DNA from: a virus
Virus record (IMG/VR): IMGVR_UViG_3300037070_005936
Location: 1 to 20,949 of that record
DNA: 20,949 nt
Reading direction: 5' to 3' (one strand)
Within the stretch, counting starts at the first letter, position 1; every line of letters starts with the position of its first letter. Below, piece by piece: positions 5,315 to 20,949 of the stretch. The translations under genes and the position numbers were made by a program. The notes under the pieces are model-generated. The model was not told where the DNA came from. It worked only from the letters and a program-made list of their open reading frames with translations, and did not search any database.

Positions 5315-6514
5315 TCAGTCGGTCAGGGCGGAGAAGCGGCCGGTTCCGTTACGGCGAAGAACGCGCAGGTTGAACATACCAAGCACTTGCACATCGTACG
5401 TCAGGGTCGTGTCCGAGATAAGCGCTGCGCCCCATCCCATGCTGCCCTTTTTGCCGCCATCAAGCTCGGGTTCGAAATCCTGGAACTCGTGGAGGAGAAC
5501 GTCTTTGTCGTTGAACATGAAGACATCGGTGTCATCAACGTTCTCGTCGCAGATCCAGGGGATGCCTTCCAACTCGAAAGCAGCGCCCCCGACGGCATCC
5601 ATCTTACCGGTCGTGAACCGGCGGTTGTTGATGAGCAGGTTCGAATACCTCTCCTCATTCAATCGATTCGAAACGATGTGCGTCGGCTTCCGACCACGCT
5701 TACGGGCCATTGCCGTGATCATTCGGCGAAGGCTGGTCGTCTGCAAAGTCGTGGTCGTGCTGTCGAGGATGCCGGCCCAGTCTCGAGCGGTGTGAACGAC
5801 GCTGTAGAGTGAAGCCGCTGCCGTGACGTCCGAGAGCGACACCATCGGGTTGCCGCGCGCGCCACGGAGATACAGCGTGTAGGTCGTGAGCCACTGTGTG
5901 AGGTTTCCGCCGGCGTTGGTTCCCACGAAGGTCACGACGGGGTTCGAGCCGTCGAGCGGCGCCGTGATGGCCGCGACCACCAGGGTGTCTGCGCCTTGGC
6001 CCTCGATGGGCGACGCACCGTTCCACACCTCGAAGCCCATGCCGATGCGGAGACCCGCTGCGGACGTGACCGAGAACGTCGTCGACGCGGCGTTCACGGT
6101 CGCCGTGGGAGAACCGAGCGACTGCACGAACACCGAGCGACCGAGCTGGCGGCCGAGCGTCGAGCCACAGGTTTCCATCTGCTCGTTCACCAGGTTGATG
6201 CCGTCCTGGAGGGACGACGCCAACTTGGCTGCGACGCGGGGGATTTCCACGCGAGCGAAGAACGGAATCGGGAGGTACGTCCCCTGGACAGGCTGGATGC
6301 TGCCGCCGGCGGGAAGCGTGCCGCCGTCCGAGAGGATCGAGGTCGAGGACAGCTCGCCGCCCTTGATGTTCACGACACCGAGCTTGTCTTTGATCTTCTT
6401 GCGCTTGATGACCCCTTCACCAACGAAGGGGCACTCCATGTTGACTTGCTCGTTGACGACGGAGTTGGTGTAGCGACCGACCAGCGAGGAGATTTGCGAG
6501 ACCGTGATGGGCAT
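5315..6514 (-). CDS. Major capsid protein (HK97-fold type), 399 aa
   Basis: The 399-residue protein is the main capsid subunit, assembling the icosahedral head. Visible features are an N-terminal arm (residues ~1-60), a GTYLPIPFFARVEIPRVAAKL stretch leading into the spine helix (QDGINLVNEQMETCGSTLGRQL), and a C-terminal part (VSNRLNEERYSNLLINNRR, LEGIPWICDENVDDTDVFMFN, YDVQVLGMFNLRVLRRNGTG) typical of phage coat proteins that bind a peptide-based scaffold. Between about residues 132 and 205 is a Thr/Val/Ala-rich insert with beta strands (STTFSVTSAAGLRIGMGFEVW), probably an added domain exposed on the capsid surface. It starts directly after the scaffold gene with GGAAGG upstream. This assignment is based on pattern and its place after a scaffold. 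Confidence 0.85.
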   Translation of the reverse strand: MPITVSQISSLVGRYTNSVVNEQVNMECPFVGEGVIKRKKIKDKLGVVNIKGGELSSTSILSDGGTLPAGGSIQPVQGTYLPIPFFARVEIPRVAAKLASSLQDGINLVNEQMETCGSTLGRQLGRSVFVQSLGSPTATVNAASTTFSVTSAAGLRIGMGFEVWNGASPIEGQGADTLVVAAITAPLDGSNPVVTFVGTNAGGNLTQWLTTYTLYLRGARGNPMVSLSDVTAAASLYSVVHTARDWAGILDSTTTTLQTTSLRRMITAMARKRGRKPTHIVSNRLNEERYSNLLINNRRFTTGKMDAVGGAAFELEGIPWICDENVDDTDVFMFNDKDVLLHEFQDFEPELDGGKKGSMGWGAALISDTTLTYDVQVLGMFNLRVLRRNGTGRFSALTD

Positions 6515-8179: not shown

Positions 8180-8704
8180 TCAGGCAGTGACGGCAGCCGT
8201 CAGATCTTGAACCTGCTCACACGTGAAGCGGAGACGCTTCACGGTGAAGGTTGTGGAGCCAACGTTCACCGTGAGGGTGAGGACGTCTCCGCGTGCGAGA
8301 CGCAGATACCCTGTACCTGACATCGTCGGCACAGCAACCGCTGTGCCGGGCTGCGTGAACACAGCCCGTGCGCCGGGGGACACGTTCGCGGCAGCAGCCA
8401 CCGCTGCCCCATTCTTGAAGACTTCGAGGGTGATGACCTGACTATTGACCGGCGTGATTTCGCTGAGCGCGAAGGCAACGCGGTACAAACCAGCGCGGGC
8501 AATCGTGAAGCTTCCAGCCGTAGGCGCAATCGTCAGACCGAAGTTGGGCCCGGCAAGCGTCAAGGTCGCGTGAGCGATAGCGGTGGTAGCCGTAATCGCG
8601 AGGGCCACGCCCGTGTCGTCGTTGATGTAAATCTCGCCGCAGTGCGGCTCGCAGTTCAGACCGGGATAAGCGAGGCCTGCATCAGCGTTTACTCGGACCT
8701 GCAT
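8180..8704 (-). CDS. Jelly-roll (C1q/TNF-like) protein, possible head fibre or decoration, 174 aa
   Basis: From about residue 55 the protein has the pattern of a C1q/TNF-type jelly roll: GSFTIARAGLYRVAFALS, SQVITLEVFKNGAAV, TGYLRLARGDVLTLTVNVGS and TTFTVKRLRF. Such modules are common at the ends of phage fibres and surface proteins and often trimerise. The first ~50 residues hold three Cys-containing or acidic segments (LNCEPHCGEIYINDDTG) with no signal peptide. It starts at ATG 8704 with GGAGAG five bases upstream. Its place just after the lysis genes and before the capsid block suggests a head-associated appendage, which is inference. Confidence 0.6.
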   Translation of the reverse strand: MQVRVNADAGLAYPGLNCEPHCGEIYINDDTGVALAITATTAIAHATLTLAGPNFGLTIAPTAGSFTIARAGLYRVAFALSEITPVNSQVITLEVFKNGAAVAAAANVSPGARAVFTQPGTAVAVPTMSGTGYLRLARGDVLTLTVNVGSTTFTVKRLRFTCEQVQDLTAAVTA

Positions 8705-16046: not shown

Positions 16047-16451
16047 TCAGTCCGCCTTGTCTTCATCGGTCGATGACTCAGTCTTCGACCCAAGAAGAGT
16101 AGAACCGTCGGCGTCGACCAGCTTGATTTCGATATTCGCGCCACCGAACGCGGTTCGGGCCACCGCGTCATCGTACACCCGTCGGTTCACGGACTTGAGC
16201 AAGAACTGAAGCATGGACGCGTCACCCGCCATTGCGCGTCCCATCGCCTTGTCCGTCAGCAGGTCTTCCATCAGCTGGTTGAGCTGCTTCGCGAAGCCCT
16301 TGTCATTTCGCTTCCACTGATTGACGGAGTCGAACGGCACATCGACCGCAGCGGCAGCAGCACGGACCGTGCCGTGCTCTCCGAGAGCCCGGAGAAACCG
16401 CTCTTTGGGGGCCTTTTCCGGACGGGATTGGAGGGAAAGCTGGGTGAACAT
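16047..16451 (-). CDS. terS: Terminase small subunit, 134 aa
   Basis: Small terminases bind the packaging site and present DNA to the large subunit. Residues ~25-45 (VRAAAAAVDVPFDSVNQWKR) form a helix-turn-helix typical of the family. A helical oligomerisation segment follows (LNQLMEDLLTDKAMGRAMAG), then a beta/acidic C-terminus (LGSKTESSTDEDKAD). The start is taken as ATG 16451. A TTG at 16469 has no ribosome site. The ATG also lacks one, but a promoter-like pair sits so that transcription would begin at or next to this ATG (see 16458-16487). The downstream gene is terL, joined without a gap. Confidence 0.85.
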   Translation of the reverse strand: MFTQLSLQSRPEKAPKERFLRALGEHGTVRAAAAAVDVPFDSVNQWKRNDKGFAKQLNQLMEDLLTDKAMGRAMAGDASMLQFLLKSVNRRVYDDAVARTAFGGANIEIKLVDADGSTLLGSKTESSTDEDKAD

Positions 16452-16501: not shown

Positions 16502-16987
16502 TCATCGGTTGGTCCCTACAGGAGCCTTAGGGAAGGGCGCCGCAGCACGCGAAACACCTCGAACTACGCGGGAAACATAAGGACAGTTCGTACCAAACTT
16601 AGCCGCCACGTCCTGGCACGTCATGCCTTCAACTAGTACCAGTCTGCGCATCTCTGTGATGTCCTTGTCGGAGAATGCACAGGCTCTCTTACGCTTCTCA
16701 ATCGGTGAGAGAGCGTATATTTCCTGCATATGATGGATGTTCACGCACTTAAGATTCTCGCACGTACGACGGAGAATGGAGCCTGGGTTTAACCGTCGGC
16801 CGTGTAGCTCCCACTGGATTCTAGCAAGACCTCGGTACTCCGAGGTCCCATCCTTCAGAGAAACTTTGATGCGAGGCTGGCCATCGGCGTGATAGCTACC
16901 AACCCATTCCATACACCCGGTCATCTTATCTTTGGGTAGGGTAAGTTCCGCCACGCGGCGCTTGAGTGATTTGAGGGTGGGGCTCAC
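16502..16987 (-). CDS. HNH-like protein with C-terminal helix-turn-helix, catalytic His missing, 161 aa
   Basis: Residues ~25-90 follow the layout of small phage HNH nucleases of the HNH_3 kind: CMEWVGSYHADGQPRIKV, ARIQWELHGRR, then LRRTCENLKCVNIHHM. In that family the segment usually reads R-H-x-C-D-N-x-x-C-x-N-x-x-H, so the first catalytic or metal-binding His is replaced here by Arg74, and the His usually preceding the R-x-x-W is also replaced (LARIQW). The terminal His pair (85-86) is kept. Residues ~108-145 form a helix-turn-helix (CQDVAAKFGTNCPYVSRVVRG). It may be DNA-binding only. It begins at GTG 16987, overlapping the previous stop as GTGA. It sits right before terS, where HNH genes often occur. 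Confidence 0.7.
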   Translation of the reverse strand: MSPTLKSLKRRVAELTLPKDKMTGCMEWVGSYHADGQPRIKVSLKDGTSEYRGLARIQWELHGRRLNPGSILRRTCENLKCVNIHHMQEIYALSPIEKRKRACAFSDKDITEMRRLVLVEGMTCQDVAAKFGTNCPYVSRVVRGVSRAAAPFPKAPVGTNR

Positions 16988-17766
16988 GGGAGCACCAACT
17001 TTGGGGCCCGTATCGTCCAGGCAATCGCGGTCAGGGTCGCCGTCACTTCAGCTCGCACCTCCGGGTGGATTTCGAAATCCTTATTATGGTTGGGGTCTGT
17101 GAACAGTTCCGGCCGAGTCTTTACGAGGAAACTCTCCAACTCCTGGCGGAGAGAAAAGTCTGCGTCTGGAAGGAGCCTGCGAATGGTGTCGAACAGAAGC
17201 TCGCCTGGTGCTGGCGGAGGAATGCCCGCCTCCATCACCTCGGGTTCGGGCGGCAGTTCTTTGGCCAGGGCCAGCAGGCGTGCGGAGACTAGGTTCGGGT
17301 CCGTTTCAAGGATTTGGTGACATTGCTCCTGCTCATCCCACGGGAACATGGTTCGTCGGTCGTCCCGACAACGCACGACCAGGCGCGTTTTCGCCTTCTG
17401 GGATAACTGTGGAAACAGCTGGCCGATTAACCTCTCCAACGAGGGGCGTCTCCGAGAAGGTTTGGTGGCGGGTATTTGTTCCGGAACAGGCCGCGGTGTT
17501 ACGGAACGCGGCCGGGGCGAGATGAGTTCCGGAACGGCCATAGGTTCCTTTTGTTCCGGAACGTTCGGTGCCTCATTTCTCTGTTCCGGAACGACAGGTT
17601 CCGGAACAGAAGGTGCCTGTTCCGTACGATGTTCCGGAACGACAGGTTCGGTTACGGTCCTGTTTCTGTAGTGCCGGGTCTTGCAGACGTCGGAACAGAA
17701 GAGACGACGGACCGTCTTAGGGGTGAAGGGCAGCTGGCAGGCGGGGCAGGGACGTTCGGTTTCCAT
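16984..17766 (-). CDS. Zinc-finger protein with Val-Pro-Glu repeat linker, 260 aa
   Basis: The N-terminus is a probable zinc finger with Cys7, Cys10, Cys24 and Cys28 (CPAC and FCSDVC), followed by RHYRNR. A Pro/Glu/Val-rich linker (residues ~40-105) carries six V-P-E motifs. Residues ~105-260 are mainly helical (LERLIGQLFPQLSQKAKTRL and the final helix EVTATLTAIAWTIRAPK). All six V-P-E motifs are coded by the identical palindrome GTTCCGGAAC, while the bases on either side vary. This is better explained by DNA sites than by protein need. The gene starts at ATG 17766 with no ribosome site and a promoter placed exactly for a leaderless message. It is the first gene of the minus-strand series. 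Function is unknown; a DNA-binding regulator or replication protein is inferred. Confidence 0.75.
   Translation of the reverse strand: METERPCPACQLPFTPKTVRRLFCSDVCKTRHYRNRTVTEPVVPEHRTEQAPSVPEPVVPEQRNEAPNVPEQKEPMAVPELISPRPRSVTPRPVPEQIPATKPSRRRPSLERLIGQLFPQLSQKAKTRLVVRCRDDRRTMFPWDEQEQCHQILETDPNLVSARLLALAKELPPEPEVMEAGIPPPAPGELLFDTIRRLLPDADFSLRQELESFLVKTRPELFTDPNHNKDFEIHPEVRAEVTATLTAIAWTIRAPKLVLP
17478..17640. repeat. Six exact GTTCCGGAAC palindromes inside the zinc-finger gene
   Basis: Exact copies begin at 17478, 17526, 17553, 17583, 17598 and 17631. A one-mismatch copy GTTACGGAAC at 17498 is out of the V-P-E reading frame, and a hybrid GTTCCGTACG lies at 17619. Spacings are 48, 27, 30, 15 and 33 bases. 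Two more exact copies lie outside the gene at 17837 and 18463. Confidence 0.9.
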
Positions 17767-17769
17767 GGA

Positions 17770-17780
17770 CGTACGGTACG
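17770..17780. promoter_or_regulatory. CGTACGGTACG site overlapping the -10 of the minus-strand promoter
   Basis: This copy of the second palindrome family (reverse complement of CGTACCGTACG) covers the -10 box TACCGT of the minus-strand promoter and ends four bases before the start codon of the zinc-finger gene. A protein bound here would block transcription, so it is a candidate operator. Confidence 0.6.
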
Positions 17781-17801
17781 GTCGGAACAGTACGGTGTCA
17801 A
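17773..17801 (-). promoter_or_regulatory. Promoter for the minus-strand late series, leaderless start
   Basis: On the minus strand TTGACA (17801-17796), 17 bases, then TACCGT (17778-17773), then six bases and ATG 17766. The expected start of transcription falls on the A of the ATG, so the message would lack a leader. No ribosome site is present to contradict this. It mirrors the plus-strand promoter at 18026-18054. Confidence 0.6.
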
Positions 17802-17811
17802 GTTAGAATCT

Positions 17812-17821
17812 GTACCGTACG
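17812..17821. repeat. GTACCGTACG copy upstream of the minus-strand -35
   Basis: This 10-base copy of the second palindrome family is 10 bases upstream of TTGACA, a typical place for an activator or an upstream operator. It is the partner of the copy at 17770-17780. Confidence 0.55.
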
Positions 17822-17836
17822 GGCGTTGGGTAACAC

Positions 17837-17846
17837 GTTCCGGAAC
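17837..17846. repeat. GTTCCGGAAC copy in the divergent intergenic region
   Basis: This is an exact copy of the first palindrome family outside any coding sequence. It shows that the motif is not only the product of V-P-E codons. Confidence 0.75.
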
Positions 17847-17851
17847 AGGTA

Positions 17852-17880
17852 GTGTAGGGGGGTAGGAGCGCTACCTACAC
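17852..17880. repeat. Hairpin in the divergent region
   Basis: GTGTAG pairs with CTACAC and GTAG pairs with CTAC, with a four-G bulge on one side and loop GAGCG. No T-run follows. It is a candidate operator or RNA structure between the two divergent promoters. The rest of 17881-18025 is G/C-rich, with repeated CGTGCC/GGCACG and CCCCGGGGCCCC, and no gene is seen there. Confidence 0.45.
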
Positions 17881-18025
17881 GTAAAAGAGCTTTGGTCGAT
17901 CGAGACATGCACCCCCCGTGCCGCCCCGGGGCCCCACGTCGTGCCCTATGGGGGTTGGCACGGTCTTTGGGGCTGCGCTCGAGCATCGCCCAAACTCCAT
18001 GCCACTACATTCCCGCATCGGCTAC

Positions 18026-18054
18026 TTGACCTAGCGCTAAGCCCCTGCTACACT
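18026..18054 (+). promoter_or_regulatory. Strong promoter for the plus-strand early genes, leaderless start
   Basis: TTGACC (18026-18031), 17 bases, then TACACT (18049-18054) preceded by an extended TG one base upstream, then six bases and ATG 18061. Transcription should begin on the A of the ATG. No ribosome site lies upstream of the ATG. It is the mirror of the promoter at 17773-17801, with about 225 bases between the two -35 boxes. Confidence 0.7.
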
Positions 18055-18060
18055 CTCCCT

Positions 18061-18273
18061 ATGCACACGCACATCACTACCCCCGTCGTCGCCCTCCTTC
18101 CGGACGAAGACGTATGGTCCGACGTCACCATCGAGACCCAAACCTTCCCGGCCATGGCCGTGGCCGCGCGTGGCCGCGCGCATGCGGACGCCATCATCGC
18201 CAGGGTCGACGCACTGCGGGCCAACGGATTGACCTTCTGTGACGCGATGCGCATCGCGTCAGGCGAAGACTGA
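18061..18273 (+). CDS. Unknown 70-aa protein, first plus-strand gene, leaderless
   Basis: The start at ATG 18061 is set by the promoter six bases upstream; the frame is open upstream to 17941 but that part is before the promoter start. The 70-residue product has an acidic N-terminal part (LPDEDVWSDVTIETQTF) and an Ala/Arg-rich helix (AVAARGRAHADAIIARVDAL). Two tandem copies of TGGCCGCGCG lie at 18161-18180. The last codons form part of a 22-bp perfect palindrome at 18240-18261. No family is recognised. Its small size and place directly behind a strong promoter fit an early regulatory or host-takeover protein, which is inference. Confidence 0.65.
   Translation: MHTHITTPVVALLPDEDVWSDVTIETQTFPAMAVAARGRAHADAIIARVDALRANGLTFCDAMRIASGED
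18240..18261. repeat. Perfect 22-bp palindrome
   Basis: The half-site TGACGCGATGC is followed directly by its reverse complement with no spacer. It lies at the 3' end of the 70-residue gene, thirteen bases before its final base. Without a T-run or loop it is more suited to a dimeric DNA-binding protein or recombinase than to a terminator. Confidence 0.85.
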
Positions 18274-18282
18274 CCCTACGCC

Positions 18283-18314
18283 CGTACCGTACGCCCACCG
18301 GTCCGTACCGTACG
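18283..18314. repeat. Tandem pair of CGTACCGTACG sites
   Basis: Two exact 11-base copies at 18283-18293 and 18304-18314 are 21 bases apart centre to centre, that is, two helical turns. This spacing favours cooperative binding of a dimeric protein on one face of the helix. Confidence 0.75.
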
Positions 18315-18337
18315 CCCTCCCGGGGTCGCCCTCGACT

Positions 18338-18374
18338 GTTTGGTGGCGTTAGGACGCCGTCCGTACCGTACGGG
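18338..18374. repeat. Module A: GTTTGG, GGCGT-ACGCC arms, then CGTACCGTACG
   Basis: Order: GTTTGG (18338-18343), inverted arms GGCGT and ACGCC (18345-18358), then CGTACCGTACG (18362-18372) and GG. The same order with the other palindrome is found exactly 100 bases downstream at 18438. Confidence 0.75.
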
Positions 18375-18437
18375 TGTAGGTGTTGCACCAAAACTGCAAT
18401 CGAATTTCACTCCCGGAACAAGCGTGCGGTTATTCCG

Positions 18438-18475
18438 GTTTGGGGGCGTCCTGACGCCGCGCGTTCCGGAACGGG
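18438..18475. repeat. Module B: GTTTGG, GGCGTC-GACGCC arms, then CGTTCCGGAACG
   Basis: Order: GTTTGG (18438-18443), inverted arms GGCGTC and GACGCC (18445-18458), then CGTTCCGGAACG (18462-18473) and GG. It aligns base for base with module A, except that the palindrome of the first family replaces that of the second and three bases in the arm centre differ. Confidence 0.75.
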
Positions 18476-18527
18476 GTGATCTGACATTATGTAATCAAAA
18501 CGGCCCGCTCTCCAGCCTGTTTTGGGC

Positions 18528-18569
18528 GCGGGTTCCCGTCCCCCCTCTATAAGGGGGGACGGGACCCGC
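18528..18569. repeat. Very strong 18-pair hairpin with CTATA loop
   Basis: GCGGG-T-TCCCGTCCCCCCT pairs with AGGGGGGACGGGA-CCCGC, with one bulged T and loop CTATA. The stem has 18 pairs, almost all G-C. No T-run follows on either strand, so it is not a classic terminator. It lies in the plus-strand leader region between module B and the 103-residue gene. Confidence 0.85.
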
Positions 18570-18741
18570 CCCACCAGCTGGCTCACTTCGAGCGGGCATC
18601 ACAGACGACATCCGAACGCCATCAAAAAACGAAACTTTCCCGCCGCAGCCGCGATAATCTCTCCGCCGTAGTCCGGGACACCCCCCAAACATCCTGGGAA
18701 AAAATCCCTCCAAAACCCCCAGTTCCCATGCGGACCTAAAA

Positions 18742-19053
18742 ATGCTCGCTCAACTACTCCCCTCAGCCAAGCTGGTGCTCGAAGGCACCTTGACCCCACC
18801 TACAGCCGCCACAGACCTCCGCCTCATTGAGGCAGTCGGCCGAGCTGGCGCCCGTGCATACCTGCACTCGCCTACAATGATGGCTCTATACCTACCTAGC
18901 AGCCCGCCTCAGGCGATCCTGATGATGCCCCATGTCCACATTCATCAGCTCGGGGATAAAGAGTGCACACTCCTCGTCCCTGTGGCGTCCGCTCGTGCTC
19001 CGCTCAAATCCATCGGAGTAATGGTCAACGGGTACGACCCAGATCTCCGCTGA
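18742..19053 (+). CDS. Unknown 103-aa protein
   Basis: The 103-residue product has a helical first third (LRLIEAVGRAGARAYL) followed by strand-like segments (MMALYLPSSPPQAILMMPHV, CTLLVPVASARAPLKSIGVM). No signal peptide or membrane segment is evident. It starts at ATG 18742 with only a weak GGAC upstream. No strong ribosome site is visible. Codon pattern and balance of residues support a real gene. Its job is unknown; the place suggests an early gene. Confidence 0.6.
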   Translation: MLAQLLPSAKLVLEGTLTPPTAATDLRLIEAVGRAGARAYLHSPTMMALYLPSSPPQAILMMPHVHIHQLGDKECTLLVPVASARAPLKSIGVMVNGYDPDLR

Positions 19054-20924: not shown

Positions 20925-20949
20925 GTGCCTTGTTTTCCCAAGTCTCGCC
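20921..20949 (+). CDS. Gene start cut by the right edge
   Basis: ATG 20921 overlaps the previous stop as ATGA and stays open to the edge (MSALFSQVS). Nothing more can be said; it is listed because of the coupling pattern. Confidence 0.35.

Follow-up and report, generated by a model that had tools for sequence, protein, structure and literature searches.

Why would a phage carry two nearly identical modules exactly 100 bp apart, each with a different palindrome in the same slot? We approached this question in a 20,949-bp linear virus record, the whole of which is called the window here. The window is a tailed phage fragment, with a control region between its two gene blocks: the leftward genes include a P22-type portal, the large terminase, the small terminase and an HNH endonuclease, and short rightward genes run from 18061 on. 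The two modules and their parts are as follows.

18338..18374, + strand: module A, GTTTGG-N-GGCGT-NNN-GACGCCG-NN-CGTACCGTACG-GG
18345..18358, unstranded: inner inverted repeat of module A, GGCGT-TAGG-ACGCC, from a pattern search of the window
18362..18372, unstranded: palindrome of class 2 (CGTACCGTACG) in module A
18438..18475, + strand: module B, GTTTGG-N-GGCGT-NNN-GACGCCG-NN-CGTTCCGGAACG-GG
18445..18458, unstranded: inner inverted repeat of module B, GGCGT-CCTG-ACGCC, from the same pattern search
18462..18473, unstranded: palindrome of class 1 (CGTTCCGGAACG) in module B

Module A (from 18338, GTTTGGTGGCGTTAGGACGCCGTCCGTACCGTACGG) and module B (from 18438, GTTTGGGGGCGTCCTGACGCCGCGCGTTCCGGAACGG) are identical at 27 of 37 bases without a gap, and the preliminary description, which had aligned them base for base at this spacing, was correct in both coordinates and sequence. 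The slot is filled by CGTACCGTACG in module A and by CGTTCCGGAACG in module B; the first palindrome is odd (11 bp, centered on a C) and the second even (12 bp), so that their centers are half a base out of line. The pair is the top ungapped repeat of 17767-18741, with a score of 18 that was reached by 2 of 500 dinucleotide shuffles. The region is rich in palindromes, and for this reason it was the shared flank that we tested for surprise, conditioning on the seven non-coding palindromes: the 24 bases upstream of the A and B palindromes match at 18 positions in the same register, the remaining pairs among the seven match at 3-10 on either side, and a match of 18/24 among seven sites with random flanks has P ~1e-4 (20,000 simulations). 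Further, the perfect inverted repeat GGCGT-N4-ACGCC occurs only twice in the 20,949 bp, once per module (18345 and 18445), its arms kept and its loop varying between the two. Given the shuffle score, the flank probability and an inner repeat found in these two places alone, the modules are a real duplicated composite element, in which flank and slot were duplicated together. The proposal that the two palindrome families are exchangeable parts of one element is supported for the A/B pair, by the flank statistics and a shared half-site, GT[A/T]CCG; it does not extend to the other five of the seven non-coding sites, whose flanks are unrelated.

Two other explanations of the modules were tried and set aside. 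An RNA switch built from them was rejected because they fold no better than their shuffles (z 0.03 and -0.29), and a coding repeat was rejected as well, the overlapping ORFs scoring negative for coding.

Modules A and B supply two of the roughly 15 sites of an array spanning 17478-18473; its remaining features are these.

17478..17640, unstranded: intragenic cluster with six exact copies of GTTCCGGAAC (17478, 17526, 17553, 17583, 17598 and 17631) and variants at 17498 and 17619
17770..17780, unstranded: class 2 site (CGTACGGTACG on the + strand), lying over TACCGT, the -10 box of the predicted leftward promoter
17811..17821, unstranded: near-perfect class 2 site, TGTACCGTACG
17837..17846, unstranded: class 1 site, GTTCCGGAAC, in the stretch that separates the divergent genes
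18283..18293, unstranded: class 2 site, CGTACCGTACG, 10 bp past the stop codon of the first rightward gene
18304..18314, unstranded: class 2 site, CGTACCGTACG, 21 bp after the 18283 site

The window's most over-represented palindromes are GTTCCGGAAC (8 copies in 20,949 bp) and CGTAC[C/G]GTACG (4 copies), and every copy of both lies within this 1-kb array. Their common half-site, GTWCCG, reaches 25.5/kb in the region against 1.5/kb elsewhere, a 17-fold enrichment. These palindromes are probably protein-binding sites, and as a cluster they probably control transcription, perhaps also the initiation of DNA copying.

Our preferred reading, to which we give a probability of roughly 0.45, is that the array at 17478-18473 combines transcription control with a replication origin for one or more dimeric phage proteins, modules A and B being a duplicated composite site within it. 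The GTTCCGGAAC and CGTACCGTACG palindromes would be the sites of one dimeric phage DNA-binding protein, or of two related ones, reading GT[A/T]CCG. Near the divergent predicted promoters, such a protein would repress the leftward operon, because its predicted -10 box lies under a class 2 palindrome. Occupying the array as a whole, it would nucleate replication initiation or control it. At the inner GGCGT-N4-ACGCC, some 1.5 helical turns away, a second partner may bind. There is a precedent for such an array in those phage and plasmid origins that have part of their initiator sites within a coding region. The genes, predicted promoters and hairpin around the array are listed here.

16984..17766, - strand: 260-aa ORF with a Cys-rich N-terminus (zinc-ribbon-like by eye), a linker with six VPE motifs and a C-terminal part without known family
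17767..17801, - strand: predicted leaderless promoter PL, TTGACA-N17-TACCGT-N6-ATG(17766)
18026..18060, + strand: predicted leaderless promoter PR, TTGACC-N17-TACACT-N6-ATG(18061)
18061..18273, + strand: 70-aa first rightward gene, with codon usage resembling the phage's own genes and zero half-sites
18527..18572, unstranded: very strong hairpin 3' of module B, with an RNA folding energy of -44.4 kcal/mol and a z of -7

The intragenic cluster falls in the linker of the 260-aa ORF, where all six VPE motifs are coded GTT CCG GAA C. Within their codon families these codons have shares of only 23% (GTT), 35% (CCG) and 33% (GAA), and because VPE is nevertheless always written GTT-CCG-GAA, the constraint on the six intragenic GTTCCGGAAC copies is, judging by codon choice, one on the DNA; the same 10-mer is also present in non-coding DNA. 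One could argue instead that GTTCCGGAAC spread as a coding or mobile micro-repeat, by slippage within the VPE linker gene, with the outside copies as hitchhikers and A and B an unrelated small duplication. Two linker copies do have a longer unit in common, cctgtcGTTCCGGAAC, and three stretches of other phages (L016, L017 and L019) have GTTCCGGAAC arising in coding repeats, but in most copies the flanks differ while the 10-mer is exact, and perfect copies and class 2 palindromes also stand in non-coding DNA at a predicted promoter; we regard this as the least probable of the explanations weighed here. The protein itself gave no useful family match, no confirmed relative in IMG/VR and a weak partial match in phages. 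Its neighbor, the HNH endonuclease (16502-16987, between this zinc-ribbon-like gene and the small terminase), has a C-terminal HTH-like segment.

Two further sequences within this coding region had been put forward as links between the palindrome families. The hybrid GTTCCGTACG at 17619 does exist, and lying within the leftward ORF it is the weaker support for that. The 11-mer GTTTGGTGGCG at 17460 also exists but adds nothing to the link, because it is inside the ORF, lacks the ACGCC arm and is out of register, 18 bases before the palindrome core versus 25 in the modules.

The two predicted promoters have the same layout, TTGAC[A/C]-N17-TANNNT-N6-ATG. The pattern TTG-N16-18-TANNNT-N5-7-start has three matches in the window, two of them exactly at the divergent starts 17766 and 18061, and the third is apparently due to chance. 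A TANNNT about 12 bp upstream of the start points to leaderless mRNA, which is common in Actinobacteria and Deinococcus-Thermus (PMC3160421), and the predicted layout hints at a host of actinobacterial or Deinococcus-Thermus type. The spacer and -10 box of predicted PL are tiled with CCGTAC, GTTCCG and CGTACCGTACG half-sites, and a class 2 palindrome lies on the -10 box; no palindrome lies over predicted PR. Downstream, the hairpin at 18527-18572 has no T run on either side and is possibly a terminator or a cruciform; as it is so strong (z -7), rightward transcription may pass the modules and end there.

These promoters bear directly on the idea of a pure transcriptional switch without a replication role, in which two related repressors, a pair of the CI/Cro kind, would have their operators in the array, and modules A and B would be the two specificities placed next to each other. 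The divergent predicted promoters, the palindrome on the PL -10 box and a slot shared by two palindromes that are related yet distinct all agree with it, as does the orientation of the C-centered palindromes, which read along transcription in the four exact cases. Yet no site covers PR, there is no recognizable promoter at modules A and B, a dense six-copy cluster within a coding region would be unusual for a switch, and searches of the window proteins, from a fragment whose record ends at 20949, detected no gene for a CI/Cro-type repressor. Two competing repressors, as first suggested, are possible but unsupported; nothing points to two binding proteins, and we consider a pure switch rather unlikely.

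It could also be that a single protein binds both classes, with no dual specificity at all: a 37-bp unit would have been duplicated, and the slots would then have come to differ in A/T by neutral drift. The half-site GTWCCG is common to both classes, the sequence at 17619 is a hybrid of them, and PL is tiled with half-sites of both types. Drift, however, would not maintain an odd class 2 and an even class 1 palindrome that are both perfectly symmetric in several copies, and we think this explanation improbable.

The search for relatives returned little that bears on the locus. No relative retaining the control region was found among terminase and portal relatives or in DNA searches. The module pattern GTTTGGNGGCGTNNNGACGCC occurs in seven IMG/VR stretches, none with palindromes nearby; an identical 4.8-kb fragment (L009) ends at 16370, short of the control region. 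The sites are absent from the two closest relatives found (G001 and L033, 46-49% identical by terminase and portal, and 47-49% in the portal protein), in which the matching region is perhaps not included, and the loci scanned in 48 terminase relatives contained neither palindrome. There was no DNA match in phages, no match to the control region in plasmids, no match in Rfam and no relevant title in a literature search on the two motifs. Predicted structures of the 70-aa and 76-aa proteins were not reliable enough to be used. A different palindrome array, of eight copies (AGCCTAGGCT / CTGCCGCAG) at mostly 25-bp spacing, lies at 2880-3152 of L065, about 7 kb from a distant terminase relative.

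More was learned from GTTCCGGAAC itself, for which we compared the neighboring genes of 15 IMG/VR stretches with paired copies. The pairs lie in or beside Prim-Pol primases in two stretches (L012, at 8510-8542, and L018, at 5478-5611), a Toprim primase in one (L024, at 227-257), a weakly matched replication initiation protein in another (L022, at 413-526), a helicase gene (L025) and an HTH protein (L020). In L011 and L014 they adjoin replication protein phrog_22470, with weak profile matches (8e-6 and 1e-5), and L013, L015 and L023 have the same type of array and downstream polypurine tract; L021 is an A+T-rich repeat, and L016, L017 and L019 are the coding repeats mentioned above, which show that such repeats can mimic the pattern. 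Half-sites are enriched around the GTTCCGGAAC arrays of these other phages too, and class 2 palindromes are absent from all of these loci. In all, 5-7 of about 11 contexts are near replication genes, which is suggestive given that, by our rough estimate rather than by measurement, less than a tenth of phage DNA is so placed. Together with the intragenic copies, these sites at replication genes elsewhere would point to a replication-control array at least as much as to a switch.

In five of these phages (L011, L013, L014, L015 and L023), paired CTGTTCCGGAACAG-like sites 21 bp apart, followed by the polypurine tract, sit just 3' of a probable replication protein gene (the profile match was tested in L011 and L014), an arrangement that is likely a phage origin. 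Outside phages, GTTCCGGAAC pairs were absent from 396 actinobacterial genomes. Pairs of CGTACCGTACG were absent from the viral contigs searched and numbered 24 in bacterial genomes, mostly Streptomyces, none of them tied to GTTCCGGAAC arrays. Actinoallomurus spadix (L103, 7540-7577) has paired TACCGTACCGTACGGTTCAC 27 bp apart, which resembles an operator pair.

A bolder proposal, and a long shot, is that unrelated tailed phages with different primases share GTTCCGGAAC with GTTCCG half-sites as a recurrent signal of their origins, and that the second palindrome class evolved here, in the same slot of a duplicated module, to give an origin/operator array of two specificities. If the preferred reading is right, paired GTTCCGGAAC with GTWCCG half-sites would be a signature by which to locate the replication or control regions of uncultured phages, and one duplicated module with two related but differently symmetric sites would make the evolution of site specificity directly testable. 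As nothing more than a set of operators, the cluster would be an ordinary phage control region.

The locus can be set against several known systems. The GTTCCGGAAC pairs of L011-L015, L018 and L022-L025 have the same 10-bp palindrome and extra GTTCCG half-sites, but they have no class 2 palindrome and no module, their neighboring genes are different and there is no detectable kinship. The operators and stoperators of the cluster A mycobacteriophage L5 are asymmetric 13-mers that occur in intergenic spaces throughout the genome (PMC9283540); the sites described here are likewise many copies of one short site, some of them downstream of promoters in transcribed DNA, but they are symmetric and confined to 1 kb (17478-18473). 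With the lambda CI/Cro operators the locus would share divergent promoters, here two leaderless ones by prediction, and it likewise has a number of related operator-like palindromes, of which only one lies on a -10 box, that of PL. It differs in that no repressor genes are seen nearby in the window, that the sites spread over several hundred bp on both sides and into a coding region, and that modules A and B lie away from any recognizable promoter. As an origin, the array departs from the textbook and from classical iteron origins in the irregular spacing of its intragenic GTTCCGGAAC copies and in its base composition: A+T is at most 50% in every 50-bp window of 17700-18800, and an A+T-rich opening region was thus not seen. 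The window gave no identifiable replication gene and no known initiator fold. In phage lambda, the iterons lie inside gene O, as inverted-repeat sites for a dimeric phage protein, downstream of the rightward promoter (PMC5043065). Unlike that origin, the present array has two palindrome classes. Its intragenic part lies in the 260-aa ORF, whose product has no recognizable family. Like the lambda origin, the array is a cluster, within 1 kb, of inverted-repeat sites, candidates for predicted protein binding, that are partly coding and stand next to a control region.
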